From positions 20,449 to 84,448 of the forward strand of contig NZ_QQXK01000015.1 in assembly GCF_003575975.1 (NCBI RefSeq): a stretch of DNA of 64,000 bases, given 5' to 3'. The DNA is from Galactobacter valiniphilus (GTDB lineage: Bacteria > Actinomycetota > Actinomycetes > Actinomycetales > Micrococcaceae). Positions 38,274-49,115 of this stretch are shown here, piece by piece (the first letter of the stretch is position 1; each line of letters begins with the position of its first letter). Below the pieces are notes generated by a model. The model worked only from the letters and a program-made list of their open reading frames with translations, was not told where the DNA came from and made no database searches. A program made the position numbers and the translations under genes.

Positions 38274-39428
38274 ATGCCCTCCACCGGAACCGCGCGCCCC
38301 TGGTACGACCGGCCCTTGCGCCTCGGCGCCGTGGCCGGGGTGCCCGTCGCCGTCTCCACCTCGTGGATTCTCGTGACCGTGGGCATGGTCGCCATCTTTG
38401 CTCCGCAGATCCGCCGCACCCTCCCCGAGCTGGGGTGGATCGCCGCCGGTGCGGTGGCCCTCGTGTACACGCTCATCCTGGCCGTCTCCGTGCTCCTGCA
38501 CGAGGTGGCGCACGCGCTGGCGGCCCGCTCCGTAGGCTGGCGTGACTCCAGCATCGAGATCACCCTGTGGGGCGGGCACACGAGCTTCGAGGCGCACGAG
38601 GAGAGCCCCGGGCGCTCGCTCTTCGTCTCCATCGTGGGGCCGCTCGTCAATCTGGTGCTGGGCGGCCTGGGGCTCGTGCTGCAGCAGCCCTGGGCACCCC
38701 AAGGCGTCAGCGAGCTTCTGCTCTACATGGCGGTGTGGTCAAACTTTGCCGTGGGTGTCTTCAACCTGCTGCCCGGGCTGCCCCTGGACGGCGGGCGCGT
38801 GGTCGAAGCCATCGCCTGGAAAATCACTGGCTCGCAGGCCAAGGGCACCATCGCGGCCGGATGGGCCGGGCGCGTGGTCGTGATCGGTGTGGTGAGCGCC
38901 GTGGTCTTCGCCCTCGTGCGCGGGGGCTTCACGCCAGGGCCTCTCACCTTCGCCGCCCTGGCCCTGGTGCTGGTGCCGCTCTGGACCGGGGCCGGCCGGT
39001 CACTGCAGCACGGACGCCTGCGCCTGAACCTCGAGGGCATGCAGGCCTCCACCCTGCTGCGTCCGGTGCAGCTGCTCCCCGCCGGGGCGAGCGTCGCCGG
39101 GGCCGAGGCCGCCGGCGTGCTCTACGGCACTGTGGTGCTGGCGACCGCCCCGGGCGGCGGCCTGCTGCGCGTGCTTCCCGAGGCGGTCCTCGCCGTTCCC
39201 GAGTCCCTGCGCGGGGGCACGCCCGCCACCCAGGCCGGCGTGCCGGCCGACGACGGCGCCGTGGTGAGCCCGGACGCCGACGGCGACCGGCTGGCCCGCG
39301 CCGCCCTTGAATCCATCAGCGGCACCGTCCTCGTCGTCGACGAGTCCGGGCGCTGCGTCGGCGCCGTGCGCCGAGAAGACGTCGTGGCGGCCATCCAGGC
39401 GCGCCCCAGGAAGGAACCCCAGCAGTGA
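38274..39428 (+). CDS. Site-2 protease family (M50) membrane metalloprotease
   Basis: The 384-residue membrane protein has the S2P motif HEVAHALAA (His at about residue 76) in a helix and the second metal motif LPGLPLDGGRVVEA near residue 170. Six hydrophobic segments lie in the first 240 residues. The C-terminal 120 residues are soluble and CBS-like, ending VVDESGRCVGAVRREDVVAAI. It would cut within membranes, perhaps anti-sigma factors, but no partner is adjacent. A TAGACT -10 element ends 7 bases before the ATG (leaderless). Its stop overlaps trmI as GTGA. Confidence 0.88.
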   Translation: MPSTGTARPWYDRPLRLGAVAGVPVAVSTSWILVTVGMVAIFAPQIRRTLPELGWIAAGAVALVYTLILAVSVLLHEVAHALAARSVGWRDSSIEITLWGGHTSFEAHEESPGRSLFVSIVGPLVNLVLGGLGLVLQQPWAPQGVSELLLYMAVWSNFAVGVFNLLPGLPLDGGRVVEAIAWKITGSQAKGTIAAGWAGRVVVIGVVSAVVFALVRGGFTPGPLTFAALALVLVPLWTGAGRSLQHGRLRLNLEGMQASTLLRPVQLLPAGASVAGAEAAGVLYGTVVLATAPGGGLLRVLPEAVLAVPESLRGGTPATQAGVPADDGAVVSPDADGDRLARAALESISGTVLVVDESGRCVGAVRREDVVAAIQARPRKEPQQ

Positions 39429-40531
39429 ACAACGAGCTTTCCGCCTCGCCGACCGGTGCCGACCACCGGCGCGGACCCCTGCGCGCCGGCGAACGCGTGC
39501 AGATCACGGACGAGAAGCGCCGCATCAACACCATCACCCTCAGCATCGGTGGGGAGTTCCACTCGCACGTTGGCGTGCTCAAGCACGACGCGATGATCGG
39601 CGAGCCGGAGGGCAGCGTCGTCGAGAACAACGAGGGCGTGCGGTACCAGGTGCTGCGCCCCCTCCTGAAGGACTTTGTCCTCTCCATGCCGCGCGGCGCG
39701 GCCGTGGTGTACCCCAAGGACGCCGGCCAGATCGTCACGATGGGCGACATCTACCCGGGTGCCAACGTCGTGGAGGCCGGCGTCGGCTCCGGCGCGCTCA
39801 CCATCTCGCTGCTGCGCGCCGTGGGCGACGGGGGCACGGTGCACTCCTTCGAGCGCCGCGAGGAGTTCGCGGACGTGGCCCGCGGCAACGTCGCCACGAT
39901 GTTCGGCGCCATGCCCCCGGCCTGGTCGCTGTCCATCGGTGACTTCCAGGAGGAGGTCCTGAAGGCCAAGGCCCCCGGCAGCGTCGACCGCGTGGTCCTC
40001 GACATGCTCGCCCCGTGGGAGTGCCTCGACGCCGTCGCCACGGTGCTCGCGCCCGGCGGCGTGTGGGTCAATTACGTCGCCACCGTCACGCAGCTCTCCC
40101 GCGTGGTCGAGGCGATCCGCGCCGATGGCCGCTTCACCGAGCCCGATTCCTTCGAGTCGATGGTCCGCGGCTGGCACGTGGACGGCCTCGCCGTGCGCCC
40201 CGATCACCGCATGGTGGCCCACACTGGCTTCCTCATGACCACCCGTCGCCTGGCCGACGGCGCCGTGGGCATCCCGCACGCCAAGCGCGTCAAGGAGGCC
40301 AGCTACTCGGCCGAGGACCTCTCCGCGTGGACGCAGGATCACGCCGAGGAGGCCTGGGTTCCCGAGGCGCTCGGCGAGCGCGGCGTGAGCGTGAAGAAGC
40401 TGCGCAAGTCGGGCCGCGAGGCCCTGCGCACCGCCGCCGCTGGCGGCGCAGACGTGAGCGCCGAGCTCGCCGAGGCGCTCGAGCGCACCGTCCCGCAGCC
40501 GGGCACCCCCGAGCCGGACGCGCAGGACTGA
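39425..40531 (+). CDS. trmI: tRNA (adenine(58)-N(1))-methyltransferase TrmI
   Basis: TrmI methylates A58 in the T loop of tRNAs. The 368-residue protein has the N-terminal barrel (LSIGGEFHSHVGVLKHDAMIGEPEGS) and the Rossmann AdoMet motif VVEAGVGSGALTISLLRAVGDGG, then VDRVVLDMLAPWECLDAV and the CT-region GGVWVNYVATVTQLSR. The C-terminal extension of about 70 residues is Ala/Glu-rich. The GTG start overlaps the site-2 protease stop. In actinobacteria this gene precedes the proteasome ATPase gene arc/mpa, as here. Confidence 0.92.
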   Translation: MNNELSASPTGADHRRGPLRAGERVQITDEKRRINTITLSIGGEFHSHVGVLKHDAMIGEPEGSVVENNEGVRYQVLRPLLKDFVLSMPRGAAVVYPKDAGQIVTMGDIYPGANVVEAGVGSGALTISLLRAVGDGGTVHSFERREEFADVARGNVATMFGAMPPAWSLSIGDFQEEVLKAKAPGSVDRVVLDMLAPWECLDAVATVLAPGGVWVNYVATVTQLSRVVEAIRADGRFTEPDSFESMVRGWHVDGLAVRPDHRMVAHTGFLMTTRRLADGAVGIPHAKRVKEASYSAEDLSAWTQDHAEEAWVPEALGERGVSVKKLRKSGREALRTAAAGGADVSAELAEALERTVPQPGTPEPDAQD

Positions 40532-40652: not shown

Positions 40653-42281
40653 ATGAGCACCCCGGCGGCCCAAGACGGCCTGCGCACCGAGTTGAGCGAC
40701 GCCCGCAAGCGCGCCCTCGAGCTTTCCGGCAAGCTCCAGGAGGTCAGCACCCAGAACTCCCGGCTCGTGGACGCCCTGCAGCGCGCCCGCGAAAAGATGG
40801 AGGGCATGCGCCAGGCGCTCGAGCACGACGGCGATCTGCCGTTCGGGCACGGCGTGGTGGTGCGTGTGCATCGCGGAGGCACGGCGGCCCCCGGCACCTC
40901 CATCAAGTCGGCCGATGTGCGCAGCGTCGACATCGCCCACGGCGGGCGCCGCGTGCGCACGAGCGTCTCGCCGCTCGTCGATTTTGCCGGGCTGCGCCCC
41001 GGCACCGAGGTGCTCCTCAACGAGGCCCTCGTGGTGGTCGCCCTCCTGCCGCAGCAGGGCACGGGCGAACTCATGACCGTCAAGGAGGTGCTCCCCGGCG
41101 AGCGGCTCCTGGTGAGCGGCCCCGCCGACGATCAGCGCGTCGTCGTGCTGGGCGGGGAGCTCACGGCCACGCCGCCGCGCCCGGGGGAGCTGGTCCTCGT
41201 GGAGCAACGCTCCATGGTCGCCACCCAGGTGGTCCGCCCGCAGGGCTACTCCGCCCTGGAACTGGAACACGTCCCCGACACGCGTTACACGGACATCGGC
41301 GGGCTCGGCCCGCAGATCGAGGCGATCCGCGACGCAGTGGAGCTGCCCTTCCTCCATTCCGAGCTCTTTGCCGAGCACCAGCTGCGCGCCCCGCGCGGCG
41401 TGCTGCTGTACGGACCTCCCGGTTGCGGCAAGACGCTCATCGCTCAGGCCGTCGCCCACTCGCTCTCGGAGGAGGCCGGAACGCGCGGCTACTTCCTGAA
41501 CATCAAGGGCCCGGAGCTGCTGGATAAGTACGTCGGCGAGACCGAGCGGCAGATCCGACTGATCTTCGACCGCGCCCGCGACAAAGCGGCGGCCGGCCAC
41601 CCCGTCGTCATCTTCTTCGACGAGATGGACGCCCTCTTCCGCACGCGCGGCACGGGCGTGTCCTCCGATGTGGAGACCACGATCGTCCCGCAGCTGCTCG
41701 CCGAGATCGATGGCGTGGAGAAGCTGGAGAACGTGCTCGTCATCGGCGCGACCAACCGCGAGGATATGCTGGATCCGGCCCTGCTGCGACCCGGCCGCCT
41801 CGACGTCAAGGTCCGCATCCGTCGCCCCGACCGCGAGGGTTCCTCGCAGGTCCTCTCGCTCTATCTCAACGAGAGCGTGCCGCTCGCTGCTGCCGAGCTG
41901 GAGCACTACGGCTCGGCGGCGGGCGCCGCGACCGGACTGTGCGAGGTGGCGGTGGAGGAGATCTTCCACCGCGACTCCATGACGGCGATGCTGGAGCTGA
42001 CCGACGAGGACGGCACGGTCACCGTGCTGCACCGCGGCGACCTGGTCTCCGGCGCCTCCCTGCGCAACATCGTCGACCGCGCCAAGCGGGCGGCGATCAA
42101 GCGCGTCCTGGCCGGCGGCGAGCGCGGCCTCGACGCCGAGCTGGTGCGCCACGCGGTGCAGGACGAGTTCGCCGAGCTGGGCCAGATGCCGGCCAGTGGC
42201 GATCCGGAGGAGTGGGCCCGCGTGTCCGGGCGCCGCGGCGCCCGGCTCGTGAAGGTGCGCTCGCTGGCGGCCGGCGCGTGA
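40653..42281 (+). CDS. arc: Pupylation-linked AAA ATPase ARC (Mpa)
   Basis: ARC/Mpa is the hexameric ATPase that unfolds pupylated proteins. The 542-residue product has an N-terminal coiled coil (about residues 10-55), tandem OB domains (about 60-200) and one AAA module with Walker A GPPGCGKTLI (near 254), Walker B VVIFFDEMDALF and arginine-finger region ALLRPGRLDVKVRI. The C-terminus is VRSLAAGA; it lacks the GQYL-type end with penultimate tyrosine that docks on the 20S proteasome. The ATG follows AGGAGG. Its stop overlaps dop as GTGA. Confidence 0.95.
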   Translation: MSTPAAQDGLRTELSDARKRALELSGKLQEVSTQNSRLVDALQRAREKMEGMRQALEHDGDLPFGHGVVVRVHRGGTAAPGTSIKSADVRSVDIAHGGRRVRTSVSPLVDFAGLRPGTEVLLNEALVVVALLPQQGTGELMTVKEVLPGERLLVSGPADDQRVVVLGGELTATPPRPGELVLVEQRSMVATQVVRPQGYSALELEHVPDTRYTDIGGLGPQIEAIRDAVELPFLHSELFAEHQLRAPRGVLLYGPPGCGKTLIAQAVAHSLSEEAGTRGYFLNIKGPELLDKYVGETERQIRLIFDRARDKAAAGHPVVIFFDEMDALFRTRGTGVSSDVETTIVPQLLAEIDGVEKLENVLVIGATNREDMLDPALLRPGRLDVKVRIRRPDREGSSQVLSLYLNESVPLAAAELEHYGSAAGAATGLCEVAVEEIFHRDSMTAMLELTDEDGTVTVLHRGDLVSGASLRNIVDRAKRAAIKRVLAGGERGLDAELVRHAVQDEFAELGQMPASGDPEEWARVSGRRGARLVKVRSLAAGA

Positions 42282-43903
42282 GCGCGCCCCGGCCGACCGC
42301 CGTCGGGCTCGGTGCGCCACAGGGCCTGCGGCCCGGCTCGCGCATCATGGGCACGGAGACGGAGTTCGGCGTGCTGGCGCCCGGAGCGCCCGGGCTCAGC
42401 CCCACGCAGCTCAGCGCCGCCGTCACGACCGCGATGGTCGACGTGGCCCGGGAGCTCGGTTCCCGGGGCGCCGGCGCACCCTGGGACTACGTGCACGAGC
42501 GCCCGCTGGACGACGCGCGCGGCTTCAGCATGGAGCGCGGAGCGGCCCACGAGAGCCAGCTGACCGACGAGGGTGACGTGCTCGACGCCCGTCAGATCGC
42601 GCTCGAAGACGGCGACGCCTGGGCGCAGCTCAAGGAGGATTCCTCGATCCTCATGAACCTCGTGCTCGGCAACGGCGCGCGCTTCTACGTGGACCACGCC
42701 CACCCCGAGTACAGCTCGCCGGAGACCACCAACTCCTGGGACGCCATGGAATGGGACCTCGCCGGTGATCGCCTCGCCGCGCGGGCAGCCGAGCTGGCGG
42801 GGGAGCGGCTCGGCGCAGAGGTGCTCCTGCACAAGAACAACACCGACGGCAAGGGCCAGAGCTACGGCACGCACGAGAACTACCTCGTGCCCCGCTCCGT
42901 CCCGTTCCAGGAGCTCGTCTCCGGCCTCCTCCCGTTCTTCGTGAGCCGGCAGGTAACGTGCGGCGCCGGCCGGGTGGGCCTGGGCCGGCGCGGCGAGCGT
43001 CCCGGCTTCCAGATCTCCCAGCGCGCCGACTTCTTCGAGAACACGGTGGGCCTCGAGACCACCATCCGGCGCCCCATCGTCAACACCCGCGACGAGCCGC
43101 ATGCCGACGACGCCCGCTGGCGCCGCCTGCACGTCATCCCGGGTGACGCCAACCTCGTGCCGACCTCCGCGCTGATCCGGCTCGGCTCCACCTCGCTGGC
43201 CCTGCGGCTCATCGAGGACGGGCTGGCCCCGCAGATCACGCTTGCTGATCCCGTGGAGGACCTGGCCCGCGTCTCGCAGGACCCCTCGCTGGGAGCGGTG
43301 CTCGTGGCCGACGGCGGGCGGCGGCTGAGCGCCCTCGACATCCAGGAGGCCTACCTCGAGGCGGCCGAGCGGCACTACGGCACGCAGAACCACGCCGAGG
43401 CGGCCGCCCTGACGTGGTGGCGCCGCGCCGTCGACGCCCTGCGCGCTGGGGACGACTCGGCGCAGCGTTTCGTGGAGTGGCAGGCCAAACAGGCGCTCCT
43501 GGAGGGGTACCGCGAGCGCGGGGGGCTTGACTGGGATAGCCCCAAGCTCGCCCTCATCGACCTGCAGTGGGCCGATCTGCGCACCGGGAAGGGGCTCGCC
43601 GCCGCGCTCATGGCGCGCGGCACCGTCGACGCGCTGGCCTCCCCCGAGGCGGTCGAACGCGCCATGGTCACGCCGCCGCAGGACACCCGCGCCTGGACCC
43701 GCGGCAAGAGCATCACACGCTTCCCCGAGGCGGTCGTCGCCGCCAATTGGGACTCGCTCTCGCTTGCTCTGGAGTGTCTGCCGCAGGTGCAGCGCGTCGG
43801 CCTCCCCGATCCGTGGGCGGCCACGGCCTCCCAGACCGATGGACTGTTCGACGACGGGGCGAGGGTTCAGGAGCTCATCAAGTCGCTGCGGGGCCTGGCC
43901 TAG
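42278..43903 (+). CDS. dop: Deamidase/depupylase Dop
   Basis: Dop converts the C-terminal glutamine of Pup to glutamate and removes Pup from targets. The 541-residue protein is a PafA/glutamine-synthetase-fold enzyme with MGTETEFGVL at the catalytic start, FYVDHAHPEYSSPETTNSWDAMEWD, HKNNTDGKGQSYGTHENYLVPR, RPIVNTRDEPHADDARWRRLHVIPGDANL and KSITRFPEAV. It starts with GTG overlapping the arc stop. The extra 35 residues before MGTETE are low-complexity, so a start nearer the motif is possible. Confidence 0.95.
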   Translation: MSAPRPTAVGLGAPQGLRPGSRIMGTETEFGVLAPGAPGLSPTQLSAAVTTAMVDVARELGSRGAGAPWDYVHERPLDDARGFSMERGAAHESQLTDEGDVLDARQIALEDGDAWAQLKEDSSILMNLVLGNGARFYVDHAHPEYSSPETTNSWDAMEWDLAGDRLAARAAELAGERLGAEVLLHKNNTDGKGQSYGTHENYLVPRSVPFQELVSGLLPFFVSRQVTCGAGRVGLGRRGERPGFQISQRADFFENTVGLETTIRRPIVNTRDEPHADDARWRRLHVIPGDANLVPTSALIRLGSTSLALRLIEDGLAPQITLADPVEDLARVSQDPSLGAVLVADGGRRLSALDIQEAYLEAAERHYGTQNHAEAAALTWWRRAVDALRAGDDSAQRFVEWQAKQALLEGYRERGGLDWDSPKLALIDLQWADLRTGKGLAAALMARGTVDALASPEAVERAMVTPPQDTRAWTRGKSITRFPEAVVAANWDSLSLALECLPQVQRVGLPDPWAATASQTDGLFDDGARVQELIKSLRGLA

Positions 43904-43929
43904 CGCCGCCGCGTGGCAGGATGGGTTTC

Positions 43930-44121
43930 ATGGCACAGGAGCGAATGCAGGGCAAGCCCAGCGCGTGGGAGCAGGCACAGGTCAACGAGACGGAGGCCCT
44001 CGGCGCCGTCAAGGGCAGCCGCGACGCCGGGGTCGACGATCTGCTCGATGAGATCGACGGCCTGCTGGAGACCAACGCGGAGCAGTTCGTGAAGGGCTAC
44101 GTGCAAAAGGGCGGCCAGTGA
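43930..44121 (+). CDS. pup: Prokaryotic ubiquitin-like protein Pup
   Basis: Pup is the small disordered tag joined to lysines of target proteins. The 63-residue product starts MAQERMQGKPSAWEQ and ends DLLDEIDGLLETNAEQFVKGYVQKGGQ. The helical C-terminal half is the ARC/PafA/Dop binding region. The final GGQ means Dop must deamidate it before ligation. A CAGGAT -10-like element (43917-43922) at leaderless distance suggests its own promoter. The stop overlaps the pafA start as GTGA, so no prcB or prcA separates them. Confidence 0.97.
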   Translation: MAQERMQGKPSAWEQAQVNETEALGAVKGSRDAGVDDLLDEIDGLLETNAEQFVKGYVQKGGQ

Positions 44122-45485
44122 TCACTCGCGTCATCGGGCTCGAGACCGAGTACGGTCTGGCCTACGACGCCGGTTCCACGCGCCCGCAGACCACCGAGGA
44201 GGTGGCCCGCCGACTCTTCGCGCCCGTCGTCGAGTGGGGTCGTTCCACCAACGTCTTCCTGCTCAACGGCTCGCGGCTCTACCTGGACGTCGGCTCGCAC
44301 CCAGAGGTCGCCACGGCCGAATGCGTCGACCCGCTCGAACTCCTGGAACAGGACCGGGCCGGCGTGCTCACGCTCGCGCGGCTCGTGTCCACGGCTGAGG
44401 ATTCCCTGCGCTCCGAGGGGCTCGAGGGCAAGATCCACCTGTTCCGCAACAACGTGGACTCCGCCGGCAACTCCTTCGGCTGCCACGAGAACTACCTCAT
44501 CCCGCGCCGACTCGAGTACCGTCGCCTCACCGAGCAGCTGCTGCCGTTCCTCGTGACGCGACAGCTTCTCTCGGGCGCCGGCCACGTCGCCAAGACCGAG
44601 GACGGCCCGCGGCTCGTGCTCTCGCAGCGCGCCGAGCACATGTGGGAGGGCGTCTCTGCCTCCTCGACCCGCTCGCGCCCCATGATCAACACGCGCGACG
44701 AGCCGCACGCCGACGCCGAACGCTTCCGCCGTCTCCACGTCATCGTGGGCGACACGAACATGGCCGAGGGATCGACCCTGCTCAAGACGGTCTCCACCTC
44801 GCTCGTGCTCTCGCTCCTGGAGACGGCCCGGGTCATGCCCTCGTGGGCCATCGCCAACCCGGTCAAGGCGCTGCGGGACATCTCCCGCGACGCCACCGGC
44901 TCCACCCTCGTCACGCTGGCGGACGGCCGAACGGTCACGGCGCTCCAGATCCAGGAGTACTTCCTGGAGGCGGCATCGGCTCATGCCGCGGCCGAGGGCA
45001 TCGCCGAGGGGCTCGTGGCCGAGGTGCTTGGGCTGTGGCGCCTCACCCTCGACGCCTGGGCCGGGGGAGACCTCGACGCCGTCAAGGGCACGCTCGACTT
45101 CGCCGCCAAGCGGGAGCTCCTGACGCGCTACGCGGAGCGTCAGGACCTGGCGCTCGACGACCCGCGCGTCGCCCGGCTGGAACTGGCCTATCACGACGTC
45201 GCGCCGGGGGCGGGGCTGCGCGAGTCCCTCGAGGCGCGCGGGCTGCTGCGGCGGTTCACGGATCCGGCCCGCGTCGAGGCGGCCCAAGACACGCCGCCCA
45301 GCGGCACCCGTGCCCAGCTGCGCTCCCGCTTCCTCGCGGCGGCGCGCGGCGCCGGCGTGGAGCACCAGGTGGATTGGCTTCACCTCAAGCTCACGCAGGA
45401 CCCGGGCCGCACCGTCCTGTTGCCCGACCCGTTCGCGACAAGCGACGCGGCGGCCGAGTCACTCATTGATGAGCTCCTAGGCTGA
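44118..45485 (+). CDS. pafA: Pup ligase PafA
   Basis: PafA uses ATP to link deamidated Pup to lysines of target proteins. The 455-residue enzyme has GLETEYGLAYD at the start with the catalytic Glu, NGSRLYLDVGSHPEVATAE, FRNNVDSAGNSFGCHENYLIPR, RSRPMINTRDEPHADAERFRRLHVIVGDTNMAEGSTLLK and WAIANPVKALRDIS. It is the expected length. The GTG start overlaps the pup stop by 4 bases, giving translational coupling. The next gene, an FKBP lipoprotein, is 86 bases downstream. Confidence 0.96.
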   Translation: MITRVIGLETEYGLAYDAGSTRPQTTEEVARRLFAPVVEWGRSTNVFLLNGSRLYLDVGSHPEVATAECVDPLELLEQDRAGVLTLARLVSTAEDSLRSEGLEGKIHLFRNNVDSAGNSFGCHENYLIPRRLEYRRLTEQLLPFLVTRQLLSGAGHVAKTEDGPRLVLSQRAEHMWEGVSASSTRSRPMINTRDEPHADAERFRRLHVIVGDTNMAEGSTLLKTVSTSLVLSLLETARVMPSWAIANPVKALRDISRDATGSTLVTLADGRTVTALQIQEYFLEAASAHAAAEGIAEGLVAEVLGLWRLTLDAWAGGDLDAVKGTLDFAAKRELLTRYAERQDLALDDPRVARLELAYHDVAPGAGLRESLEARGLLRRFTDPARVEAAQDTPPSGTRAQLRSRFLAAARGAGVEHQVDWLHLKLTQDPGRTVLLPDPFATSDAAAESLIDELLG

Positions 45486-45571
45486 TTCACAGCGCCTCCT
45501 TGTAGGCTTCAACTCAGCTGGGTTCCATGCGACCCCTTCTTTTCTTTCCTCAACGAAAGCGATTATTTGCC

Positions 45572-46555
45572 GTGCGTAAGCTCTCCGCTGCCGTCCTGGC
45601 CGGCGTCCTCCTCCTGTCCGTGAGCGCCTGCGGCCAGTCCTCCAGCCCGAGCACGAGCTCCAGCGCCTCGACGTCCGCGAGCGCCAGCGCCTCGTCTGCC
45701 GCGCCCGGCAACGGCAAGCTCTCCGACGTCAAGGTGGAGATCCAGGACGGCGGCAAGAGCGCCCCCAAGGTCACCGTCCCCGAGTCCCTCGCTGACGGCA
45801 CGGTGTCCACCGCCGTGCTGGTCGAGGACGGCGATGGCGCCGCCCTCAAGGCCGGGCAGAAGCTGCAGCTCAACCTCGCCTACTACTCCTCGGCCGATGG
45901 CGCCGCCCAGGATGAGACGACCTACGCCACGGGGCAGTCCGTGGCGCTGACGGAGAGCAACTTCAACAACCTGGGCGACGCGTACAAGCTCCTCGGCCAG
46001 GCCAAGGTGGGCGCGACCGTCCTGGTGTACGCCCCGGCCACCGTCACGGGCAGCAGCGGCATGCTGATGGTCCTGCACGTGTCCGAGGCGAAGGACCCGG
46101 CGATCGCCTGGAAGAAGTCCACCGGGGCCTCCCCGAGCGCGCTCGAGGTCAAGGAGAGCGGCGACGGCTACGCCATCACCATCCCCAAGGGCGATGCGCC
46201 GAGCAAGCTCGAGGTGAAGGTCCTCAAGGAGGGCACCGAGGGCGAGGCCGCGACGGCCACCTCGCAGGTCACCGCCTTCTACTCCGGCGCCCAATGGGAG
46301 AACGCCACCGAGTTCGACGGCAACTTCGAGGGCACCGAGGCCACCTTCGGCCTGGACCAGGTCATCGAGGGGTGGACCAAGGGCCTGACGGGCCTCAAGG
46401 CCGGCACCGTCGTGGCGCTGACGATCCCCGCCGAGCAGGCCTACGGCACGGATGCGAGCACGGGCAAGCCCACGGGCCCGCTCGTCTTCATCGTGAAGCT
46501 CACCAAGGTGGCGCCCGCCGCCGCAGCGTCCTCCGCTGCCCCCTCCTCCAACTGA
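45572..46555 (+). CDS. FKBP-type peptidyl-prolyl isomerase lipoprotein
   Basis: The 327-residue protein has a lipoprotein signal (MRKLSAAVLAGVLLLSVSACGQ, lipobox Cys at residue 20), a Ser/Ala-rich spacer, and two FKBP-like halves. The C-terminal half is the better one: EFDGNFEGTEATFGLDQVIEGWTKGLTGLKAGTVVALTIPAEQAYGT and VFIVKLTKV. It should help fold proteins outside the membrane. The GTG start gives a normal signal peptide; an ATG at 45527 would add 15 residues to the N-region. A second FKBP gene follows after 31 bases, as in other actinobacteria. Confidence 0.9.
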   Translation: MRKLSAAVLAGVLLLSVSACGQSSSPSTSSSASTSASASASSAAPGNGKLSDVKVEIQDGGKSAPKVTVPESLADGTVSTAVLVEDGDGAALKAGQKLQLNLAYYSSADGAAQDETTYATGQSVALTESNFNNLGDAYKLLGQAKVGATVLVYAPATVTGSSGMLMVLHVSEAKDPAIAWKKSTGASPSALEVKESGDGYAITIPKGDAPSKLEVKVLKEGTEGEAATATSQVTAFYSGAQWENATEFDGNFEGTEATFGLDQVIEGWTKGLTGLKAGTVVALTIPAEQAYGTDASTGKPTGPLVFIVKLTKVAPAAAASSAAPSSN

Positions 46556-46586: not shown

Positions 46587-46988
46587 ATGTCGTTTGGACA
46601 GCGCAACTTTGACCTCGACCGAGGCAAGCCGGAGATCGATTTCCCGGGCGTCGACGCCCCCGCCGATCTGGTCATCACCGACCTGATCGAGGGCACCGGC
46701 ACCGAGGTGAAGGCCGGCAATACGGTCTCGACCCACTACGTGGGCGTCGCCTGGAGCACCGGCGAGGAGTTCGACGCCTCGTGGAACCGCGGCGCGCCGC
46801 TGGACTTCACGGCCGGCATCGGCCAGGTCATCGCCGGTTGGGACCAGGGTCTCATCGGGATGAAGGTCGGCGGCCGCCGCCGCCTCGACATCCCGGCGCA
46901 CCTGGCCTACGGCCACCGCGGCGCCCCGCCGGCCATCGGCCCCGACGAGGCCCTGATCTTCGTGGTCGACCTCGTGGCTGTCCGCTGA
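46587..46988 (+). CDS. Cytoplasmic FKBP-type peptidyl-prolyl isomerase
   Basis: The 133-residue protein is a single FKBP domain: GNTVSTHYVGVAWSTGEEFDASWNRGAPLDFTAGIGQVIAGWDQGLIGMKVGGRRRLDIPAHLAYG. Residues FDASW, F, GQVIAGW and Y of the active-site pocket are present. No signal peptide is seen, so it acts in the cytoplasm. The ATG follows AGGAGCAAGCC. It is probably co-transcribed with the FKBP lipoprotein, and a hairpin follows. Confidence 0.93.
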   Translation: MSFGQRNFDLDRGKPEIDFPGVDAPADLVITDLIEGTGTEVKAGNTVSTHYVGVAWSTGEEFDASWNRGAPLDFTAGIGQVIAGWDQGLIGMKVGGRRRLDIPAHLAYGHRGAPPAIGPDEALIFVVDLVAVR

Positions 46989-47066: not shown

Positions 47067-49115
47067 GTGGTGTCCAGCACCGAGAGTAAGCCCGATCGCA
47101 CGGAGAAACTGGTCAGCCTCACGTATGCGCTGACCACCACCCGCATCGGCTACACGCGCGCCCAATTGCGCGGCATGGTCGATGACTACGCGGGCCTGAG
47201 CGACGAGGCGTTCGAGCGCAAGTTCGAGCGCGACAAGGAGACCCTGCGCAACTTGGGCGTGGTGATTGTCGACGGCAAGGGCCGCAGCGAGAGCTCGTGG
47301 GACGCGGGGGATCCCGAGCGCCGCTACCGCGTGCTGCCGAGCGACTATCCGCTGCCCGCGCTCGAGCTCGAGGCCACCGAGGCCGCCGTGCTCGGCCTGG
47401 CCGCGCGCGTCGTGGCCGGCGGCGGCCTGGGGCGCCAGGCGGCGCGCGCCGCCGAACGCCTCGGCCTGAGCACCGATCTCAGCGAGCCGGCCTTCAGCGC
47501 CGTCATCGACACCGAGGCCGAGCACCTCGAACCCCTCATCCGGCACGCCGCGCTCGGCAATCCGGTGAAATTCACCTACCGCACGGCCGACGGACGCACC
47601 GAGCCGCGCGCCGTCATGCCGTGGGGCCTCGGCCACCGCCACGGGCACTGGTACCTCGCGGCGGGCGACACCCGCCGCGACGGCGAGCGGCTCTTCCGGC
47701 TCGACCGGATCCAGGGCTCGGTCGCCCAGCTGTCCCCGAAGGCCGAGGACTTCGTCCCGCAGGCCTACGGCCGCCCGGATCGCTTCAGTATGGCCGCGGC
47801 GCTCGACCGGCTCGCGCTGGCCACCCCCTCGGAAACCGCCAGGTTGCTGGTTCCCGAGGGCGGCGGAGGCACGTTGGCCGCCCGAGCCCACGTGCGCACG
47901 CACGGCGCCGACGGCGTGCACCTCGAGGTCAGCTATCGCGACGCGCGTTCGCTCGCCGCCGAGGTGGCGGCCGAGGGCGCCCGCGTCCTGGAACCGGCCA
48001 GCCTCGCCGCCGAGGTCGTGCGCGTCCTCGCGGCGGCCGAGGCGCCGCATCGCGGCGAGGCCCCCGCCTCGCGCCTGAGCGCCCGTCGGGGCGGCAGGGT
48101 CGCCGCCGAGACCACGGTCTCGCGCGCCCTCGACCTCGTGGCCTTTGTGGTGCAGCGCGGCGCCCCCACGCCGGACGAGGTCATGGAGCGCTTCGGCCTC
48201 TCGCGGGACGAGCTCGATTCGGAGCTCACGCGGCTGCGCAATTGCGGCGTGCCCAACGGCCTGCATGACGAGCTCCTGGACGTCGAGTGGGACGAAGGCT
48301 CCGTCACGATCTCCAACGCCCAGGCGCTGGCTGAGCCCATCAATCTGAACCTGGCCGAGGCGGCCGCCCTGCTTATCGGGCTCGACGCCATGAGTTCGGC
48401 CCCCGAGGGCAGCTACACCGCCGAAGCGCTGGGAGCCATCTCCACCGTCGCCGCCCGCCTGCGCGCGCTGCGCCCCGAGCTGGCCGACTTTGAGCAGCTC
48501 CTGGCCGTGCGCGCGTCCTCCCGCGAGCGCGCCGGCCTCGCCGCCGCCCTGGCCCGTGCCGGCGAGGAGCGCTTCCTCGTGGAGCTCGACTATGCGGGAT
48601 CCAGCACGCCGGGCGGGCGGGTCATCGAGCCCATCCGCGTCCTCGATGTGGGGGAGCGCAGCTACGTGCAGGCCTGGTGCCGCACGCGGCAGGCCCCGCG
48701 CACCTTCCGCCTTGACCGCGTGGTCGGGGCGACCGTGCTCGAGGAACACTTCGCACCCGATGCCCAACGTGCCGCCGCCGTCCGCGGGGCAGTGTTCACA
48801 CCCTCGGAGACCGACGTCGAGGCGACCCTCGCGTGGGGACCTGCCTGGGCCGATCGGGCCCTGGCACACGCGCCACTGCGCACGGGCAAGGCGGGGGAAC
48901 TCCTCGCCACGCAGATCCGTGTGCGCGATTCGGCCTACCTCGTGCGCCTGGCCGCCTCGGCCGCCGGCGACGTCGTCGTGCTGGAGCCCGCCGTCCTGCG
49001 TGAGGCGACGCACCGAGCGCTCCGTTCGCGCCTCGACCAGGCGCTTACCGACGCGGCCGCGGCCGGCGTCGTGCCGGACGAGCTGGCGGCCGTGGCCGAG
49101 GGGAGGGCCCGCTGA
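47067..49115 (+). CDS. pafBC: PafB-PafC fused WYL-domain regulator (DNA damage response)
   Basis: The 682-residue protein carries two HTH-WYL-WCX units in a row, equal to PafB and PafC of mycobacteria fused. Unit 1 has the HTH near residues 20-60 and WYL region GHWYLAAGDTRRDGERLFRLDRIQG; unit 2 has ALDLVAFVVQRGAPTPDEVMERFGLSRDEL and RSYVQAWCRTRQAPRTFRLDRV. Such natural fusions are known in Arthrobacter. PafBC activates DNA-damage genes with RNA polymerase, responding to ssDNA. A TATAGC -10 lies at leaderless distance from the tandem GTG start (47067/47070). Confidence 0.93.
   Translation: MVSSTESKPDRTEKLVSLTYALTTTRIGYTRAQLRGMVDDYAGLSDEAFERKFERDKETLRNLGVVIVDGKGRSESSWDAGDPERRYRVLPSDYPLPALELEATEAAVLGLAARVVAGGGLGRQAARAAERLGLSTDLSEPAFSAVIDTEAEHLEPLIRHAALGNPVKFTYRTADGRTEPRAVMPWGLGHRHGHWYLAAGDTRRDGERLFRLDRIQGSVAQLSPKAEDFVPQAYGRPDRFSMAAALDRLALATPSETARLLVPEGGGGTLAARAHVRTHGADGVHLEVSYRDARSLAAEVAAEGARVLEPASLAAEVVRVLAAAEAPHRGEAPASRLSARRGGRVAAETTVSRALDLVAFVVQRGAPTPDEVMERFGLSRDELDSELTRLRNCGVPNGLHDELLDVEWDEGSVTISNAQALAEPINLNLAEAAALLIGLDAMSSAPEGSYTAEALGAISTVAARLRALRPELADFEQLLAVRASSRERAGLAAALARAGEERFLVELDYAGSSTPGGRVIEPIRVLDVGERSYVQAWCRTRQAPRTFRLDRVVGATVLEEHFAPDAQRAAAVRGAVFTPSETDVEATLAWGPAWADRALAHAPLRTGKAGELLATQIRVRDSAYLVRLAASAAGDVVVLEPAVLREATHRALRSRLDQALTDAAAAGVVPDELAAVAEGRAR

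Follow-up and report, generated by a model that had tools for sequence, protein, structure and literature searches.

According to passages of a 2021 review, a subset of Actinobacteria lost the proteasome subunits and kept pupylation (PMC8223512), and a 2012 review notes, in the part that deals with these species, that their ATPases lack the docking motif (PMC3511204). This motif, GQYL, is described in one section of a further paper as docking into pockets of the proteasome alpha ring (PMC8755798). Here we describe a pupylation locus of Galactobacter valiniphilus, found in a window of 64,000 nucleotides (contig NZ_QQXK01000015.1, positions 20,449 to 84,448), in which the genes arc, dop, pup and pafA follow each other at 40653-45485 and no gene of the 20S proteasome was found. 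As in Corynebacterium glutamicum, judging from excerpts of PMC3511204, the same four genes are present, pup stands directly before pafA, prcBA is missing, ARC lacks GQYL and a ferritin is encoded; unlike C. glutamicum, Galactobacter belongs to the Micrococcaceae and its arc and dop overlap as GTGA. The system is best read as proteasome-independent pupylation of the Corynebacterium type, with release instead of degradation suggested by analogy. Given the intact locus, the lack of a 20S gene and the tail-less ARC, Pup-tagged proteins are predicted to be unfolded by ARC and released, probably without proteasomal degradation.

Micrococcus luteus and Kocuria rhizophila belong to the same family, in which Galactobacter is a separate genus. 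The figure cited for subunit loss in the 2021 review lists M. luteus along with C. glutamicum in its key (PMC8223512). M. luteus and K. rhizophila are both named in a figure key of the paper on Cpa, where the same part says that actinobacteria without prc are also without Cpa (PMC6017811). From these keys we infer that M. luteus and K. rhizophila lack prcBA. With the Pup-proteasome system of Mycobacterium tuberculosis, Galactobacter shares homologous ARC/Mpa, Dop, Pup and PafA as well as a nearby PafBC. However, it differs from the Mpa-20S and Bpa arrangement in that no match to PrcA, PrcB or Bpa was found, no prcBA lies between pup and pafA, and PafB and PafC are apparently one protein; an activator with a GQYL tail, either ARC/Mpa or Bpa, which marks the M. 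tuberculosis-type system, is likewise missing here. Since proteasome-less pupylation is already known from two reviews (PMC3511204, PMC8223512), the present locus adds a member and not a new kind.

The pupylation locus and the missing core

The locus is complete: its four genes are collinear and have open frames, and each scores above the curated NCBIfam cut-off of its own family. The arc gene (40653..42281; this and all other features of the window given below lie on the plus strand) encodes an AAA+ Pup-unfoldase (Mpa/ARC), presumably hexameric, of 542 residues without a C-terminal GQYL tail, matching TIGR03689 with 663.5 bits (cut-off 504.75) as well as PF00004, PF17758 and PF16450; the TIGR03689 matches in the genome include other AAA proteins besides ARC. 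It is followed by dop (42278..43903), a Pup deamidase/depupylase of 541 residues (TIGR03688, 545 bits against 492.3) that aligns to the solved Dop structures 4b0r and 5lrt, including the motif YVDHAHPE. The pup gene (43930..44121, with an in-frame ATG at 43921 as an alternative start) encodes 63 residues ending in KGYVQKGGQ (TIGR03687, 68 bits against 41.45; PF05639, 67.3 bits), and a Pup ending in GGQ should need deamidation by Dop before ligation. The Pup ligase gene pafA (44118..45485) starts with GTG and encodes 455 residues (TIGR03686, 593.5 bits against 551.3), which align to the solved PafA 4b0t and carry YLDVGSHPE at residue 55. The latter motif and its Dop counterpart presumably hold the catalytic aspartates.

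The complete arc-dop-pup-pafA order claimed in the initial annotation thus holds, and so does the claimed overlap of pup and pafA as GTGA. In the DNA it occupies 44118..44121, with the pup stop TGA at 44119-44121 and the pafA GTG at 44118-44120, and its length of four bases is shared by the three congeners. The arc/dop overlap likewise reads GTGA, at 42278-42281. In relatives that carry prcBA, prcB and prcA sit between pup and pafA, which is the site of the GTGA overlap in Galactobacter; there is no room for prcBA at this place.

A profile search of the whole genome (3,416,165 bases in 99 contigs, 100% complete, 0.42% contamination) with the proteasome domain PF00227 gave no matches and no loose first-look candidates, and none of the four genomes of the genus, this one included, gave a match. 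The same search yielded matches in 135 of the 245 genomes of the family, and it was therefore sensitive enough. The absence of prcA and prcB, for which the initial annotation had proposed this genome-wide search, is well supported, though not absolute, since the assembly is a draft. Bpa (PF10759), searched for in the genus, was also found in none of the four genomes. The description of the host as Micrococcales-like proved apt, the nearest named loci being from Galactobacter, a member of the Micrococcaceae and Micrococcales: among named loci, PafA identity is 95% to a Galactobacter metagenome-assembled genome (MAG), 92% to a MAG that carries the label Arthrobacter and 78% to Galactobacter caseinivorans JZ R-183, and then falls to 54% or less.

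The ARC protein lacks the docking tail and keeps its motor motifs. It aligns to residues 58-590 of the Mpa chain 7px9, which we take to be that of M. tuberculosis and which runs to residue 609; the ARC frame stops there, and the last 19 residues of 7px9, where GQYL is located, have no counterpart. The 3' end of arc (42210..42281) encodes SGRRGARLVKVRSLAAGA followed by the stop, so that the frame closes approximately where the GQYL-bearing tail of Mpa would begin. The C-terminus VKVRSLAAGA contains neither GQYL nor a penultimate tyrosine, and the three congeners likewise encode an ARC without the GQYL tail. ARC retains Walker A (GPPGCGKT) and Walker B (FFDEMD) as well as the pore loop YVG, which corresponds to F341-V342-G343 of Mpa, as given in the relevant section of PMC8755798. 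As these three motifs are kept, ARC should still be able to unfold.

Signs of maintenance were found in all four genes. Ratios of nonsynonymous to synonymous substitution rates (dN/dS; Nei-Gojobori, only codons inside aligned genes) between the window and three congeners (L011-L013; G denotes genomes, g genera of the family and L loci) were 0.025-0.206 for arc, 0.114-0.237 for dop, 0-0.173 for pup and 0.047-0.190 for pafA, and thus the pupylation genes are under purifying selection. Of the three enzymes, ARC is under the tightest constraint relative to the nearest congener (dN/dS 0.025). Furthermore, each of the four genomes of the genus encodes a ferritin, and the copy of this genome matches PF00210 with 116.6 bits. 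Ferritin is the type of substrate whose disassembly by ARC has been proposed for C. glutamicum, according to parts of two papers (PMC8223512; PMC12288473). The initial annotation had suggested that this Micrococcales-like genome resembles corynebacteria in keeping pupylation without a proteasome. This comparison is supported by the missing prcBA and Bpa, the tail-less ARC and the purifying selection; the outcome is not special to one genome, PF00227 being absent from 110 of the 245 family genomes.

Fate of Pup-tagged proteins

By analogy with described systems, the pathway would proceed as follows. ARC would assemble into a ring, as is typical of its family, Dop would convert PupQ (GGQ end) to PupE (GGE end), and PafA would ligate Pup to lysines of the substrate. 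ARC would then grip Pup and unfold or disassemble the substrate, in line with the proposal made for C. glutamicum ferritin. Without a chamber for docking, the chain would go free, either to refold or to separate from its complex, while Dop would take Pup off again and recycle it. Among the fates named in the initial annotation (release, refolding or hand-over to another protease), release appears to be the best-precedented one, the experimental precedent being ferritin in C. glutamicum as treated in portions of PMC8223512 and PMC12288473. Four points weigh against this reading: pupylation, ARC activity and the fate of tagged proteins in Galactobacter are predictions from genes, another protease could still take the chains unfolded by ARC, the draft of 99 contigs leaves the absence of prcBA short of absolute, and the association between tail and core described below rests on few independent events.

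One rival, raised in the initial annotation, is that ARC passes Pup-tagged proteins to another chambered protease or a membrane protease (ClpP, FtsH or Lon), so that pupylation would still mean degradation, only in another chamber. The translocation motifs of ARC are kept and threaded chains must go somewhere, and nothing in the sequence speaks against such a route, although no search for these proteases was made. However, the ARC frame ends before the tail throughout the genus, the last residues of ARC vary between proteasome-less genera with no replacement motif seen, and no description of a hand-over to another protease was found in the portions of the pupylation reviews that were consulted; we regard this explanation as unlikely. 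Still less probable is that pupylation acts alone as a reversible regulatory mark while ARC serves a Pup-independent job. Dop and PafA, both retained under purifying selection, would suffice for writing and erasing the mark, but ARC belongs to the same string of overlapping genes, is the most constrained enzyme against the nearest congener and exceeds its family cut-off in 244 of the 245 family genomes.

It is very improbable that prcBA is present and was missed through an assembly gap, relocation or divergence beyond the reach of PF00227. The number of contigs would leave room for a gap, and the proteasomes of genera g2 and g21 are indeed strongly diverged, with a long branch. Nevertheless, these diverged copies were detected by the same PF00227 search, none of the four genomes of the genus gives a match, and in all four the ancestral site is closed by the four-base overlap. 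Decay of the locus into a relic following proteasome loss is the least credible of the alternatives: the docking partner is gone and a passage of PMC3511204 reports the enzymes of proteasome-less lineages as more variable, but the four frames are open, dN/dS is low, the motifs are kept, and ARC and Pup are retained in nearly all proteasome-less genomes of the family. Unfolding by ARC followed by release thus stays our preferred reading. Since selection maintains the pupylation genes in a genus where no proteasome gene was found, the locus argues that tagging and unfolding are useful by themselves.

Core, tail and Bpa across the Micrococcaceae

The lack of PF00227 in 110 of the 245 family genomes is spread over 13 of the 32 genera, each without a match in any genome, and two mixed genera, g21 (matches in 4 of 9 genomes) and g26 (6 of 7). 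ARC scored above its cut-off in every family genome except G188, which gave a weak AAA match only, and Pup was found in 244 of 245, the exception being G067, which is 82% complete. In a class sample of 197 genomes PF00227 was present in 160 and Pup in 162, and six genomes, including that of G. valiniphilus, had Pup without PF00227 (lists compared by eye). Pup without a proteasome is thus uncommon in the class sample and very common in the Micrococcaceae. The Pup sequence itself ends in GGE in 9 of the 107 proteasome-less genomes where it was read, versus none of 30 proteasome-bearing ones.

Of the 110 family genomes without a proteasome, all but G067 (no Pup match) and G188 (91% complete, 6% contamination) had the end of ARC read. 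Among these 108, one had GQYL, and the other 107 had neither GQYL nor a penultimate tyrosine. The proteasome-bearing side was sampled with 31 loci from all 19 genera that have PF00227, of which 30 include the ARC end (the G166 contig does not), the short stretches L001-L010 around prcB being left out; in this sample of 30 among 135 genomes, GQYL was present in 26. The stretch of G147 holds ARC only. This survey extends the statement on motif loss made in part of the 2012 review (PMC3511204). Outside the genus, 77 named loci (L014-L090) were also collected, 63 of which contain a pup gene and an ARC end that could be read. When prcBA was sought within the stretch of each locus only and not in the whole genome, GQYL was found in 13 of 13 loci with prcBA and in none of the 50 without. 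Among the named loci, five from Georgenia (L028, L029, L030, L038 and L039) have no prcBA between pup and pafA and an ARC ending in GGYL, AGYL or PGYL, the first of which differs from GQYL solely at the Q, a position described as freely mutable in a passage of PMC6017811. In Georgenia, either prcBA lies elsewhere or its loss is recent.

Bpa has been said, in one part of the 2021 review, to co-occur strictly with prcBA (PMC8223512). This rule fails in the Micrococcaceae, where 16 of the 135 proteasome-bearing genomes are without a PF10759 match and one genome has a Bpa match without PF00227; in one more, G076, the PF10759 match is a fragment below the cut-off. The Bpa-less proteasome-bearing genomes fall in g2, g15, g21, g25 and parts of g10 and g31.

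On a quick rpoB-rpoC tree of 58 family genomes (G166 left out; G002 and G139 entered without rpoC), the proteasome trait requires eight changes when gain and loss count equally, or eleven losses when only loss is allowed under midpoint rooting. Proteasome-less genera interleave with proteasome-bearing ones, and hence the losses in the Micrococcaceae are separate from that of C. glutamicum; related genera appear to have reached proteasome-less pupylation again and again. A single clade (support of 100 in the Shimodaira-Hasegawa-like approximate likelihood-ratio test, SH-aLRT) unites Galactobacter with its sister genus g11 and lacks PF00227 throughout. The tree suggests that the core was lost in or before the common ancestor of these two genera, neither of which retains the docking tail. 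In sign tests on independent pairs, tail and core changed in the same way in a mean of 4.7 of 7 pairs, with none opposite (median p 0.06), and Bpa and core in 3.5 of 7, with 0.1 opposite (median p 0.25). Neither test reaches 0.05, and the links are suggestive only.

Two situations illustrate the order of loss. Genome G011 (g9, 99% complete) has no PF00227 match, and its locus (L124, G011:C9:76000-91000, minus strand) shows a gap of 272 bases between pup and pafA, in which a single frame joins a PrcB propeptide (E 4e-7) to a PrcA C-terminus (E 1.3e-11). By its sequence this gap is readable as the scar of one deletion and points to a recent loss of the proteasome. Its ARC still ends in NTGQYL and a short Bpa (L174, G011:C17) in GQYL, so that in G011 the core went first. 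A search for such scars in proteasome-less genomes, covering 36 stretches of at least 40 bases from the pup stop to the conserved start motif of PafA, found G011 alone convincing, each of its two matches being the best among the sequences of 30 relatives, while the next best candidate reached E 0.005. No scar of this type was found in the window, where pup and pafA overlap by four bases.

The opposite order is seen in G004 (g2, L148) and in G092, G109 and G154 (g21; L137, L138 and L141), which have prcBA in place between pup and pafA, an ARC ending without GQYL and no Bpa match in the genome; in G166, also of g21, prcBA is present and the ARC end is not on the contig. As prcBA was kept while ARC is without GQYL and Bpa is unmatched, the docking partners went first in these genera. 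Their PrcB retains Thr1, Asp17, Arg19 and Lys33, of which we take Thr1, Asp17 and Lys33 to be catalytic, and their PrcA retains a lysine that is presumably the pocket lysine. The 20S proteasomes of g2 and g21 are apparently uncoupled from both GQYL-tailed activators, Cpa not having been searched for. We found no description of a proteasome uncoupled from both in searches of open-licence papers, nor in the portions seen of PMC4255298, PMC2588565 and PMC10665810.

The position of g2 and g21 among proteasome-less genera on the species tree raised the possibility that they regained prcBA by transfer, an explanation that was rejected. In a tree of PrcB and PrcA they form one clade (100) inside a family clade of 30 rows (SH-aLRT 96), the genes occupy the ancestral place and rapid evolution at that place would account for the long branch, and retention with several losses elsewhere is therefore preferred. 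Against retention it must be said that this tree is quick, with no bootstrap, a long-branch warning and an outgroup that does not fall on one side of a branch, and that the g2/g21 branch is itself long. It is about an even call that the state of the window is one end point of a dismantling that has taken place repeatedly and in steps, with no fixed order between them. In g2 and part of g21, the core would survive uncoupled from Pup and from both GQYL-tailed activators, working alone or with an unknown activator; g9 would have had its core cut out in a single deletion with both docking tails kept, and pupylation would be the conserved part to which the proteasome is a dispensable attachment.

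What is new is the scale within one family, namely 110 of 245 genomes without PF00227 alongside near-universal Pup and ARC, 107 of the 108 ARCs read in such genomes without GQYL, and 8-11 changes of the trait implied by the tree; for specialists, interest lies in this family-wide pattern, the deletion scar and the uncoupled proteasomes. The outlook of the 2012 review, in the part concerned, asks whether Pup is a degradation tag or a regulatory tag (PMC3511204). Comparison of close relatives makes this question testable, as g26 provides close pairs that differ in the core, g9 shows a recent loss together with its scar, and g2 and g21 have proteasomes minus both known GQYL-tailed docking partners.

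Neighbouring genes and minor observations

Upstream of arc lies a trmI-like tRNA methyltransferase gene (39425..40531; PF14801 TrmI-like_N and PF08704). Downstream of pafA follow two FKBP-type prolyl isomerase genes (45527..46555, PF00254 with 56.7 bits, and 46587..46988, 100.5 bits) and a frame of 682 residues (47067..49115) with PF19187 HTH_PafC, two PF13280 WYL domains and PF25583 WCX. From its domains, this WYL-domain regulator is apparently a fusion of PafB and PafC in a single frame. Regulators of the PafB-PafC type are, by family, DNA-damage regulators. The neighbourhood of pupylation genes with FKBP and a regulator has been described previously, as seen in part of PMC2588565.

Genome G109, marked as 4% contaminated, contains a second, partial rpoB-like frame of 332 residues (G109:C4:336611-337447, 484.9 bits). 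Finally, two MAG contigs among the named loci, L017 and L026, are labelled Bifidobacterium breve and carry pafA, L026 also pup and prcBA. As no proteasome is known from bifidobacteria, these labels are likely binning errors.

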